Positions 602 to 8,607 of a stretch of DNA of 39,166 nucleotides are shown one piece after another. The notes under the pieces are model-generated. The model made no database searches. It had not been told where the DNA came from and saw only the letters and a program-made list of their open reading frames with translations. A program made the translations under genes and the position numbers. This DNA comes from a virus: IMG/VR virus record IMGVR_UViG_3300046457_000108, positions 1 to 39,166 of that record; one strand, written 5' to 3'. Every line of letters begins with the position of its first letter. The first letter of the stretch is position 1.

Positions 602-1348
602 ATGATTCATTACCACGGCACCCCGATTGGCGGCACACGGCAGGACGTGGCGCGCTTTCTCACCGGCCGGCATGCGCTGATCCCGTTCCCGCGTCAGGAC
701 GACACCGGCGCTGTGCTGGAGTTCTGCCAGTCCTTTTGCCTGGACAACGGAGCGTTCACGACCTGGAAGCAGGGAAAGCCGCTGGACGTGCCGGGCTTCA
801 CCGCCTGGGCCGAGAGCATGCACCGGCACCCGGCTATGGATTGGGCGCTGATCCCCGACAGCATCGAGGGCGACGAGGCCGACAACGACGCGCTGCTGCG
901 CGACTGGCCGGCGCATCTGCGCGCGGTCGGCGTGCCGGTGTGGCACTTGCACGAGAGCATCGGTCGGCTGCAGCGCCTGTGCCGCGAGTGGCGCACGGTT
1001 GCGCTCGGATCGTCCGGCCGCTGGGCCACGCCAGGCACGGCCGGCTGGTGGGGGCGCATGACCGAGGCCATGAACGCCATCTGCGATGAGCACGGCCGGC
1101 CCACGGCGCGACTGCACGGCCTGCGCATGCTCGACCCGCAGATATTCACGCGCTTGCCGCTGGCGTCCGCCGACAGCACCAACGCCGCCGTGAACTGCGG
1201 CAGCCTGGACCGCTTCGGCATCTACACCCCCCCGACCGCAGCTCAGCGCGCAGCAGTGATTGCCGAGCGCATTGAGCAGCACAACAGCGCCGCCACATGG
1301 CAGGTGCTTCCCGAGCAACAGGACATCTTCGGCTTGGAGGCCGCATGA
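602..1348 (+). CDS. DpdA/TGT-like protein, candidate 7-deazaguanine DNA transglycosylase
   Basis: 248 residues, preceded by a strong ribosome binding site (AGGGAGGACAC). The sequence reads like an alternating alpha/beta barrel with short conserved turns: HYHGTPI at residue 3, DNGAFTTW at 48-55, WALIPDSIEG at 81-90, VWHLHES at 113-119, VALGSSGRW at 133-141, LHGLRML at 171-177 and ASADST at 188-193. The D-(S/N)-GAF, P-V-W/F-H, GSSG and S-(V/A)-DST signatures recall the phage DpdA branch of the tRNA-guanine transglycosylase superfamily, which swaps guanine in DNA for a 7-deazaguanine base. The CxCxxC zinc site of true tRNA enzymes is absent, as expected for DpdA-like proteins. A VUT-family transporter gene 246 bp downstream supports this reading. 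The assignment is from motif memory, without a search; another TIM-barrel function is possible. Confidence 0.5.
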   Translation: MIHYHGTPIGGTRQDVARFLTGRHALIPFPRQDDTGAVLEFCQSFCLDNGAFTTWKQGKPLDVPGFTAWAESMHRHPAMDWALIPDSIEGDEADNDALLRDWPAHLRAVGVPVWHLHESIGRLQRLCREWRTVALGSSGRWATPGTAGWWGRMTEAMNAICDEHGRPTARLHGLRMLDPQIFTRLPLASADSTNAAVNCGSLDRFGIYTPPTAAQRAAVIAERIEQHNSAATWQVLPEQQDIFGLEAA

Positions 1349-1593
1349 GCAACCAGAACCATTACCGATTCACCTTCTACGCGCGCTGCCCCAGCGACGG
1401 CGCACGCATCGAATACGCCGTGTCCATCCTCATCAAGCTGACGCTGCCCGTCGAGGAACTGCGCGCGTTCTGCGCCCAGCAAGACGGCAAGTTCCAGGAG
1501 TCCATCGCCGACGCCATGCACGAGCAGTTCGGCGGCCGGCAAGTCATCACCGCCACGCACCAGGGCGTGCAAATCACCACCGAAAGAGGCTGA
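1345..1593 (+). CDS. Small conserved-looking protein of unknown function
   Basis: 82 residues, starting at an ATG that overlaps the DpdA-like stop (ATGA). It has no signal peptide or membrane segment. The N-terminal half looks beta-rich (YRFTFYARC, IEYAVSILIKLTL), followed by a helix and a final strand ending QGVQITTERG. I do not recognise the family. Its position between the DpdA-like and transporter genes, coupled to the former and one base from the latter, makes it a candidate third component of that cassette. Confidence 0.7.
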   Translation: MSNQNHYRFTFYARCPSDGARIEYAVSILIKLTLPVEELRAFCAQQDGKFQESIADAMHEQFGGRQVITATHQGVQITTERG

Positions 1594-1594
1594 C

Positions 1595-2077
1595 ATGCTC
1601 ATCATCGCCATCACTGCCTATGCCATCGCCATGACGCTGGCGAACCTGTCCATCGCCCACTTCGGGCCGGCAAGCATCCCCTTCAACGCATTCGCCCTGA
1701 TCGGCCTGGACCTGGCGCTGCGCGACTGGCTGCATGTCCGGCTCGCGCGCTGGCAGATGCTTGCGCTGATCGCGGCATCGGGCCTGCTGACCTGGGTGCT
1801 CAACCCCGCCGCCGGCCACATCGCCGCCGCCAGCGCTGCCGCGTTCATGGCTGCGGCCCTGGCCGACTGGCTGGCGTTCACGGCGTTGCCGGGCTCCTGG
1901 CTCGCGCGCTCCGCAGGCTCCAACGTGGCCGGCGCGGCGGTCGATTCGCTGGTGTTCCCGTTGCTGGCCTTCGGCGTGATCGCGTGGCCGGTGGTGCTGC
2001 CGATGTTCGGCGCCAAGGTCGCGGGCGGTCTGCTGTGGGCGCTGCTGCTGTCGCGCACAAGCAGAGCTGTCGCATAA
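1595..2077 (+). CDS. VUT/YhhQ-family membrane protein, candidate 7-deazaguanine (preQ0) transporter
   Basis: 160 residues, very hydrophobic, with about five or six membrane segments (roughly 1-20, 27-42, 52-68, 74-95, 108-130, 135-155). Conserved-looking cytoplasmic and intramembrane features are SIPFNAFALIGLDLALRD (28-45), NPAAGHIAAAS and GSNVAGAAVDSLVFPLLAFG, the pattern of short phage members of the VUT family. YhhQ, the E. coli VUT member, imports the queuosine precursors preQ0 and preQ1. In an operon with a DpdA-like gene but no queC/D/E/folE homologues, the likely job is to raise the cell's supply of 7-deazaguanine base. It begins one base after the upstream stop. Family assignment is fairly firm; the substrate is inferred. 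Confidence 0.7.
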   Translation: MLIIAITAYAIAMTLANLSIAHFGPASIPFNAFALIGLDLALRDWLHVRLARWQMLALIAASGLLTWVLNPAAGHIAAASAAAFMAAALADWLAFTALPGSWLARSAGSNVAGAAVDSLVFPLLAFGVIAWPVVLPMFGAKVAGGLLWALLLSRTSRAVA

Positions 2078-5337: not shown

Positions 5338-5385
5338 GTATTTCAGGTGTGGCATCAACGGTTCTTCTCGTGTAGGCTGTATGGA

Positions 5386-6462
5386 ATGACAGTTCGCGTC
5401 CTTCGCCTGCGTATCAAGGACCGCCATGCCAAGTGGCTGTCCGAGCGTGCGCGCGAGGTCAACACGATCTGGAACTACTGCAACGAACTCAGCCGCAAGG
5501 TATGGGAGCGCGAGCGTCGCTTCTTGAGCGGCTTCGACTTCTGGCCCTTCCTCAAGGGCGTCACCAAGGAAGGCATCAACCTGCCGGTGCAGACCGTGCA
5601 GGAGGTGGCCGAGCAGTACGCCGTGAAGCGCCGCACCGCGAAGAAAACACGGCTGGCGTGGCGCAAGTCGGGCGGCGCACGGCGCAGCCTGGGTTGGCTG
5701 CCGTTCAAGGTCCGCACCATCCGCTACGCGCACGGGCAGGTCTGCTACGCCGGGCAGTGGCTGTCGCTGTGGGACAGCTACGGCCTGGGCGCCTTTGAGC
5801 TGCGCGCCGGCAGCATCAGTGAGGACGCACGCGGGCGTTGGTACTTGAACGTCTGCGTCAACGAAGCAGACTTCGTTGGCCCCATGCCTGTGCCCGCCGA
5901 GAGCGAGTGCGTCGGCATCGACCTGGGGTTGAAGGAACTTGCGGCGCTGTCCAGCGGGGAGACGGTCGCCGCGCAGCAGTTCTACCGGGACATGGAGCCG
6001 GCGCTTGCCACCGCGCAGCGCGCCGGCAAGAAGGATCGCGCCAAGGCCATTCACGCCAAGATTGCCAACCGGCGCCGCGACCATCTTCAAAAGCTTTCCA
6101 CCAGCCTTGTGCGCGAGCACCGGGCCATCTTCGTCGGCAACGTCAACGCCAAGGCCCTCGCCAAGACACGCCTCGCCAAGAGCGTGCTGGACGCGGGCTG
6201 GAGCACGTTGCGAACCATGCTGCAGTACAAGTGCGACCGCGCAGGCGTGTGGTTCAGAGAAGTCAACGAAGCGTTTTCCACCCAAACCTGTTCTGCGTGC
6301 GGGAGCCTCCCGCCGCAGCGGCCGAAAGGTATCGCAGGGCTTGGAATAAGAGAATGGACGTGCAGCAGTTGCCACACGACGCATGATCGTGATGTCAACG
6401 CAGCTCGGAACATTCTTGCGGTCGGACATGGCCGTCTAGTAGTAGGAATCCCCGGCCTTTAG
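5386..6462 (+). CDS. tnpB: TnpB (IS605 OrfB) RNA-guided nuclease, variant RuvC-II site
   Basis: 358 residues from ATG 5386; an in-frame GTG at 5347 would add 13 unlikely residues. The N-terminal RNA/DNA-binding half is basic. RuvC-I is GIDLGLKEL (Asp179). The RuvC-II position reads FVGNVNAKAL (249-258), so Gly251 stands where the catalytic Glu of typical TnpB (xVxENLNxK) is expected. Downstream are KSVLDAGWSTL, REVNEAFSTQTC (Glu292, Glu295), a zinc finger (Cys302, Cys305, Cys326, Cys329) and RuvC-III THDRDVNAARN (Asp334, Asp336). Some TnpB clades have a relocated catalytic glutamate; Glu292 or Glu295 are candidates here. TnpB uses a right-end omega-RNA to cut empty target sites, favouring element retention. 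The stop codon lies inside the right-end hairpin. Confidence 0.85.
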   Translation: MTVRVLRLRIKDRHAKWLSERAREVNTIWNYCNELSRKVWERERRFLSGFDFWPFLKGVTKEGINLPVQTVQEVAEQYAVKRRTAKKTRLAWRKSGGARRSLGWLPFKVRTIRYAHGQVCYAGQWLSLWDSYGLGAFELRAGSISEDARGRWYLNVCVNEADFVGPMPVPAESECVGIDLGLKELAALSSGETVAAQQFYRDMEPALATAQRAGKKDRAKAIHAKIANRRRDHLQKLSTSLVREHRAIFVGNVNAKALAKTRLAKSVLDAGWSTLRTMLQYKCDRAGVWFREVNEAFSTQTCSACGSLPPQRPKGIAGLGIREWTCSSCHTTHDRDVNAARNILAVGHGRLVVGIPGL

Positions 6463-7635: not shown

Positions 7636-7966
7636 CGCCGTGCAGGCGCAGCAGGCGCTCAGCCTCTGCTCTGATGCCAACCATCATGATCCTGGCAATA
7701 GACCCGCGCCCGTGATCCGACAGCCAAGCCAGCTTGGCGTGCAGCGGCTCGTCTAGCTTGACGTTGTACTGCTTGACGATGCGAGGATTCGCCTCGGTCC
7801 ATGGGTATGGTTGGGTGTGGTGTGGTGCGGTTGGGTGTGGTGTGGTCGGGTTTGGTGGGGTGTGCCGCGTGACGGCGCCGTCCATGAACTTCTGCACCTC
7901 TGCGGGGTCCGGCAGATCGTCGCCAAGATTGAACCCGCCGCCAGTCTTGAGCTTCTTCGTGCTCAT
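7622..7966 (-). CDS. ParB-like partition partner (C-terminal RHH-like)
   Basis: 114 residues; the ATG at 7966 overlaps the parA stop (ATGA), with GAGGTG as ribosome binding site. The N-terminus ([20 protein letters not shown]) is basic and flexible, suitable for stimulating the ParA ATPase. The middle is a low-complexity Pro/His/Thr linker ([20 protein letters not shown]) encoded by tandem 20-bp DNA repeats. The C-terminus ([21 protein letters not shown]...[16 protein letters not shown]) has the strand-helix-helix order of ribbon-helix-helix DNA binders. Small RHH proteins serve as ParB in type Ib partition. Its 3' end overlaps the Rep gene 3' end by 14 bases on the opposite strand. Confidence 0.6.
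7809..7866. repeat. Tandem G/T-rich repeats inside the parB-like gene
   Basis: GGTTGGGTGTGGTGTGGT occurs exactly at 7809-7826 and 7829-7846 (20-bp period), with a degenerate third unit from 7849. The same 18-mer stands upstream of parA at 8644-8661. Repetition at both ends of the par operon is what a partition centromere/operator looks like. Confidence 0.7.
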
Positions 7967-8607
7967 GCCCACACCTCCTGCGCGACAGCATCCATCTCGG
8001 TCTGCGCCTTCCTGTCGTCCAAGTCGTAGACGCTCGCGCCGAGCTTGGCGCAGTGGCGGAATGCCGTGCGCGTGCAGAGCTTTCCAGGCAGCAGTTCCAG
8101 GCTTGCCAGCGGCTGCAGCGCCGCGCGGGCCTCTGCCGCTTCTTTGTCGTGCGGATGCGCGCTGGCCGAGTTGAGCACTACCAGCGCCTTGAGCTTGCGA
8201 TTCATGGCGCGCGACAGCCGGATCAGTTCGTCCAACTTGCGCATGGTGCTCAAGTCGAAGCCGGACACGATGCACGGCACGATGGCGCGGTCTGCGTAGG
8301 GCAGGGCTGCGCGCAGCTCCTCGCTGTCGGCGCCACCAACGTCCACGATCACATCGTCGTATGGCTGCTCGCTGCAAACCTGCTGGATGCTGTCGATCAG
8401 CGTGTTGCCGTACAGGCAGACGCAGGTGATGCGCGGCTCAAGCCCGGCACGCAGGCGCAGGCCAGACCACATGCTCGCACTCTTGCTGTTGGGGTCCGCG
8501 TCCACAAGCAGCACGCGCCGGCCGCGCGCCGCGCGCCACGCAGCCAGGTTGACGGCAATAGTGGACTTGCCTGGGCCGCCCTTCTGCCCCGCTGTCGTAA
8601 TCAGCAT
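7963..8607 (-). CDS. parA: ParA partition ATPase
   Basis: 214 residues. The deviant Walker A is at residues 7-16, [10 protein letters not shown], with signature Lys9 and P-loop Lys14. Walker A' is VLLVDADP (Asp38/Asp40), and the Walker B-like segment is DDVIVDVGG. Length and the lack of an N-terminal HTH place it with small (type Ib) ParA proteins, which position plasmids on the nucleoid together with a small DNA-binding partner. The ribosome binding site is GGGAGAGCGAC before ATG. It is the first gene of a two-gene operon with the RHH-like protein and is divergent from the lysis end of the late genes. A chromosomal-style MinD function is unlikely because there is no membrane-targeting tail. 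Confidence 0.88.

Follow-up and report, generated by a model that had tools for sequence, protein, structure and literature searches.

How does a phage that encodes a DNA transglycosylase of the DpdA family, but none of the enzymes making its 7-deazaguanine substrate, obtain the base to be inserted? For such DpdA-only phages, both the source of the base and whether their DNA gets modified are a standing puzzle: the insertion of preQ0 into DNA by DpdA has published precedent, and 76 DpdA-only phages have been listed, with precursor from the host or the environment named as possible sources (Hutinet 2019, PMC6884629). The question is raised anew by an IMG/VR virus contig (IMGVR_UViG_3300046457_000108; 39,166 bases, 66% G+C), the whole of which we call the window. 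Three genes arranged head to tail on its + strand encode a DpdA-like guanine transglycosylase (602-1348, 248 aa), a conserved 82-aa protein (1345-1593), and a short VUT/COG1738-family transporter (1595-2077, 160 aa). They form a tight three-gene operon, since the ATG of the 82-aa gene overlaps the DpdA stop codon by 4 bp (ATGA) and a spacing of 1 bp separates its own stop from the VUT start; the 246-bp gap between DpdA and VUT is thus occupied by this middle gene. An earlier sequence-only reading of the window had described the two outer open reading frames and their motifs, which are present as it gave them, and had proposed that biosynthesis genes are lacking, in agreement with our search of the window, which gave no member of the QueC or QueD families. 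We consider that this operon is probably a salvage-type 7-deazaguanine DNA-modification cassette.

The protein encoded at 602-1348 is a singleton phage DpdA with the fold of the guanine transglycosylases (TGTs). It carries the signatures DNGAFTTW, VWHLHE, GSSGRW, and SADST and matches phrog_887, annotated as ‘queuine tRNA-ribosyltransferase’ (E 8e-66); a Pfam search gave no family match. Across an alignment of 34 relatives, the segments D48-N-G-A-F, P85-D86, P-V-W-H115, H172-G, and S-A-D191-S are invariant. The family profile A1, made without phage 9g, matches the experimentally validated DpdA of this phage (hhalign E 7.8e-10), pairing D48 with the aspartate of 9g DSGAF, D191 with that of SCDSSS, and H172 with 9g His196, the histidine that separates DpdA from DpdA2, where it is absent (Hutinet 2019, PMC6884629). 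A hidden Markov model (HMM) built from A1 only scores 48.8 bits on the 9g DpdA and 33.4 bits on that of phage Dp-1, and reported neither of the two bacterial tRNA TGTs tested. D48, D191, and H172 are conserved in 113 of 113 DpdA representatives, 9g and Dp-1 included, and we regard D48 and D191 as the putative catalytic aspartates. A profile comparison of a wider DpdA alignment with 9g and Dp-1 was set aside as circular, both phages being inside that alignment. The DpdA of Salmonella phage 7-11 shares 31% identity with the window protein (E 3e-32). The DpdA-type identity advanced by the sequence-only reading is therefore borne out by the 9g profile match, beyond membership of just some TIM-barrel family, and this kinship suggests that DNA would be the acceptor of the enzyme.

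The AlphaFold model of the protein (pLDDT 89) aligns in VIA-align with an archaeosine TGT (Z 15.4), the Z. mobilis TGT (Z 15.0), and Cap10 (9ntn, Z 15.4). Foldseek lists the crystal structure of a DpdA, 7ui4, at rank 18 (prob 0.97); this structure is not among the 50 VIA-align rows listed. Assignment to another TIM-barrel family was rejected: although generic aldolases head the Foldseek list, TGTs come first once the structures are re-aligned, and the sequence profiles match DpdA. As the protein folds like tRNA TGTs, its family bears a tRNA label in databases, and VUT transporters normally serve tRNA queuosine, the transglycosylase might act on tRNA or other RNA, the imported queuosine precursor raising host or phage tRNA modification and improving late translation; such tRNA boosting has been proposed for phages with precursor genes but without DpdA (Hutinet 2019, PMC6884629). 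We judge this unlikely, given that the family profile picks up the validated DNA-acting enzymes of 9g and Dp-1 but neither of the two tRNA TGTs tested, that the tested hosts have their own TGT, and that the window protein has 248 aa, versus ~385-415 aa for the tested tRNA TGTs, with no CxCxxC zinc motif visible in it. The tie of Cap10 with TGTs among the closest structural neighbours raises another alternative, counter-defence or signalling in which the deazaguanine would be put on a protein or a small molecule, as in type IV CBASS (Cap9/Cap10), instead of on bulk DNA. Singleton relatives with little or no DNA modification (PMC6884629) would fit such a role, but it appears quite improbable to us because the sequence-level kinship is with DpdA and the neighbours in several relatives are DNA-modification or recombination genes, such as the cytosine methylase of Epa33 and the DNA methylases close to DpdA and VUT in StevieRay.

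The transporter encoded at 1595-2077 is a short VUT/COG1738 protein with six helices. It carries the patterns NAFALIGLDLALRD and GSNVAGAAVDSL, scores above the curated cut-off of Pfam Vut_1 (29.6 bits against 27.2, E 1.1e-6), and matches phrog_4899 (E 7e-29), in support of the family named by the sequence-only reading. Against the NCBIfam equivalog TIGR00697 ‘queuosine precursor transporter’ it obtains 16 bits, under the cut-off of 50.95, and as the protein is both short and divergent within its superfamily, the family name does not settle its substrate. The model (pLDDT 93) comprises six helices (2-23, 25-47, 52-69, 71-97, 102-126, and 131-159) and has the fold of the S-components of energy-coupling factor (ECF) transporters (5edl, Z 11.6; RibU, Z ~10.8), the top 14 structural rows all being S-components or related uptake proteins, with the caveat that helical bundles may score such Z values without kinship.

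The sequence-only reading had made its proposal hinge on the co-occurrence of the two genes in relatives, and this co-occurrence is pervasive. Three scans of IMG/VR, two based on the window VUT with its alignment and the third on a divergent alignment, yielded 220 best-matching viral VUT loci (125 distinct VUT DNA sequences in ~104 clusters, some contigs having been fetched twice), and a DpdA homologue is adjacent on the same strand in all 220, with a median gap of 9 nt. With every locus adjoining DpdA, the VUT-DpdA linkage greatly exceeds what chance would give, and more than 100 other phages have relatives of the operon. DpdA also adjoins VUT in eight inspected GenBank phages (PEAT2, Tbat1_6, Opt-719, Phc, AB3P2, RCIP0319, LHE71, and ECO111 5-P), several of these DpdAs being annotated merely as hypothetical; the LHE71 VUT, used as an IMG/VR query, gave no matches. 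Such tight and repeated linkage departs from the earlier statement that YhhQ homologues occur in some phages with no correlation to any group (Hutinet 2019, PMC6884629). Many loci of the VUT set are related contigs, and the cassette is surrounded by a region of small variable genes, so that the two or three genes might be independent passengers, adjacent through shared ancestry of the locus and not through joint function. We find this very improbable, as gene order varies (192 DpdA-VUT and 28 VUT-DpdA loci, with the 82-aa gene intercalated in some), a tree of 113 DpdA representatives requires no fewer than 16 changes of the VUT label (an approximate count, because contig ends can remove labels, with 8 changes forced by well-supported branches), and transporters and DpdAs of unrelated lineages are paired elsewhere. 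VUT has been repeatedly gained or lost relative to DpdA; even the near-identical DpdAs L090 and L094 differ in whether they have VUT or the 82-aa gene. In the reverse direction, among the 80 closest DpdA loci, VUT is found in 8 and the 82-aa gene in 55, an asymmetry that fits a one-way dependence of transporter on transglycosylase.

Pairing elsewhere is exemplified by a second VUT subfamily, which adjoins DpdA-family genes in Pam5, RHph_X2_30, and RHph_N3_2 (DpdA HMM E 3e-74 to 7e-80) and lies next to, or one gene from, divergent transglycosylase-like genes in phiLM21, StevieRay, Aoka, and ReqiPine5, these last being recognised from a ‘DpdA-like’ annotation in StevieRay and Aoka and from motif reading only in phiLM21 and ReqiPine5. 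The phages are those of Sinorhizobium (phiLM21), Mycobacterium (StevieRay), Arthrobacter (Aoka), Rhodococcus (ReqiPine5), Pseudanabaena (Pam5), and Rhizobium (the RHph phages). Across rhizobial, cyanobacterial, and actinobacterial phages, this subfamily is coupled to DpdA lineages other than that of the window, a case of convergence. The genes of RHph_X2_30 follow the order VUT, small gene, 82-aa gene, DpdA. A small family of ~81-86 aa (ERADGxPIDPSRRY), common to RHph_X2_30 and Pam5 (L454 3745-3990, L489 2178-2438), lies inside the cassette, on the side of VUT that faces DpdA. A DpdA like the Salmonella phage type is also found in OR850331.1 (Staphylococcus phage SA 1298 Kay, 1719 bases), possibly a mislabelled contig.

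Parts of this arrangement were already known, as phage preQ0 import had been proposed in 2018 and DpdA-only phages listed in 2019, so that the distinct strategy claimed by the sequence-only reading is new only in part. Singleton group 3 phages such as Salmonella 7-11 (PMC6884629) resemble the window in DpdA family and in the absence of precursor genes, but the window DpdA differs in sharing an operon with a transporter gene and the 82-aa gene. Pantoea phage vB_PagS_Vid5, for which preQ0 salvage via a VUT protein was proposed (PMC6266253), has, like the window, a VUT-family transporter putatively specific for preQ0/preQ1 and a transglycosylase; it also has a cluster of other precursor biosynthesis genes, whereas none was found beside the window cassette. 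In Streptococcus phage Dp-1 (NC_015274), a transporter gene directly adjoins DpdA as in the window, but this transporter is QueT and, unlike the window, Dp-1 also has FolE, QueD, QueE, QueC, and a QueF-type gene. DpdA and VUT are adjacent in PEAT2 (NC_044940, Pectobacterium), AB3P2 (Acinetobacter), and Pam5, with one small gene between them in Pam5; these three phages differ from the window in gene order and in that an 82-aa homologue was not seen adjoining, and QueC was not found in them. In the GenBank records of PEAT2 and Pam5, both genes carry names. We found no paper describing the pair of these three phages as a system, though the deazaguanine literature of 2023-2024 may mention the pairing. 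The DpdA of Enterobacteria phage 9g, with validated dPreQ0/dG+ insertion, has a core homologous to that of the window DpdA, with D, H, H, and D residues in common, but it is 317 aa long, versus 248 aa, and is accompanied by a full dG+ pathway.

What the transporter carries is suggested by its cellular homologues. Among 46 short-VUT loci in bacterial genomes, eight have queC, the preQ0 synthase gene, 61-224 bp from the short VUT, in betaproteobacteria and Chloroflexi, and transport of preQ0 or preQ1 by the phage VUT is predicted from this context. The short VUTs beside queC (L174, L179, L180, L181, L190, L194, L196, and L197) are candidate unusually short cellular queuosine-precursor transporters. 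DpdA is found at five of the 46 loci, in a prophage or contig; that DpdA linkage is generic wherever short VUT occurs was therefore discarded. In the viral contig L343 (935-2666), a single operon comprises DpdA, VUT, and, between the two, a gene for a 179-aa QueC homologue. QueC was not found in 48 of 49 cassette-bearing virus records, many of which may be fragments, nor in 11 of 12 GenBank records with VUT. Each of the 11 tested bacterial genomes encodes QueC, TGT, and QueF, so that hosts could supply some precursor. Compensation by VUT for a preQ0-deficient host was rejected as a general explanation, the genomes with the five cassette prophages or contigs all having QueC, QueF, and TGT. Since the tested hosts make preQ0 themselves, import in them would boost supply and not rescue an auxotroph.

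The middle gene, too, is linked to DpdA. The sequence-only reading had suggested that it might complete the cassette, and DpdA is nearby at every one of 79 newly fetched viral loci with a homologue (70 downstream, 9 upstream), mostly within a few bp; Microcystis phage Mae-JY30 and RHph_X2_30 likewise pair an 82-aa homologue with DpdA. In Pseudomonas phage Epa33 (L170 4740-6830), a cytosine-C5 DNA methylase directly follows DpdA and the 82-aa homologue. The protein matches phrog_37496, a family without assigned function, and Pfam and PDB searches gave no match. Its comparison with QueF in hhalign is weak (probability 16%, P 0.0015, score 22.1, against 20.3 for the best of 200 scrambled controls). 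Cys and Glu are invariant in the family and the His of an HE pair is common; the aspartate of the QueF GQPD motif is absent. An apparent beta-beta-alpha-alpha-beta-beta pattern, read by eye, recalls the QueF T-fold. A bona fide QueF is not established by these data, the GQPD aspartate being missing and the profile match weak, but the 82-aa protein may be QueF-like, which we take as a lead and not as membership of the family.

Taken together, these elements suggest how the salvage cassette would operate. VUT, in the host inner membrane, would import a ready-made 7-deazaguanine base, most likely preQ0 and possibly preQ1 or a relative, which the DpdA-like enzyme would exchange for guanine in DNA by the TGT base-exchange mechanism, with D48 and D191 as catalytic residues, and the exchange would mask phage DNA from restriction enzymes. 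The 82-aa protein may act as a DpdA accessory that binds or converts the salvaged base or sets specificity. Making no precursor, the phage would draw on host and environmental pools, the transporter topping up supply beyond a host synthesis presumably scaled for tRNA. Several observations weigh against this proposal. The viral VUT loci are the best-matching ones of each scan and not a random sample; most DpdA relatives are without VUT; the VUT of Rhizobium phage RHph_N17 has no adjacent DpdA, this phage encoding QueC elsewhere; and the tested hosts of cassette prophages have QueC and TGT, import there being not strictly needed. In addition, the singleton-DpdA phage Salmonella 7-11 has only trace dADG (~0.02% of G) and phage Orion has none (PMC6884629), so that the singleton enzymes may be divergent or may produce little modification.

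That the transporter almost never occurs without an adjoining DpdA in these phages nevertheless offers a concrete, testable answer to the puzzle of the DpdA-only phages. If it is correct, the disguise of phage DNA would depend on a community nutrient, which could explain modification missed under precursor-poor test conditions, and two unannotated small families, phrog_4899 and phrog_37496, would gain a pathway. More tentatively, and with the odds in our view somewhat against it, DpdA, VUT, and the 82-aa QueF-like or base-handling protein could constitute a widespread three-part phage system using salvaged 7-deazaguanine, in which restriction resistance would be tied to precursor from the host or neighbouring microbes; mycobacteriophages of the StevieRay type, whose host lineage is without the precursor pathway, would then need an external precursor.

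In the window, the operon is preceded by a strong Shine-Dalgarno sequence, AGGGAGGA (591-598, +), ahead of DpdA, and directly upstream lies a gene for a NinB recombination mediator (176-583, +; Pfam NinB 2.9e-23). At the other end, a perfect 20-bp palindrome, AACGCGTTGCGCAACGCGTT (2076-2095), overlaps the VUT stop codon and is possibly an operator or terminator element. The ends of the record carry a 127-bp exact repeat, which is what a complete circular phage genome would show; the record also encodes a terminase, a portal, an SU10-type capsid protein, Erf, a Gp157/Gam-like protein, a CII-like regulator, and a replication protein. The nearest terminase is that of EBPR podovirus 2 (62%), and GenBank phages yielded no relative at the DNA level for the first 12 kb. 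A ParA-like partition protein is encoded at 7963-8607 on the - strand (phrog_164, 7e-37) and no tyrosine integrase was detected in the window, a combination compatible with a plasmid-like prophage; for the phage-plasmid nature assumed by the sequence-only reading, it is suggestive only. The phage further encodes a TnpB/OrfB_IS605-type protein (5347-6462, +) with Pfam matches to Cas12f1-like_TNB (1.2e-24) and OrfB_IS605 (1.7e-10).
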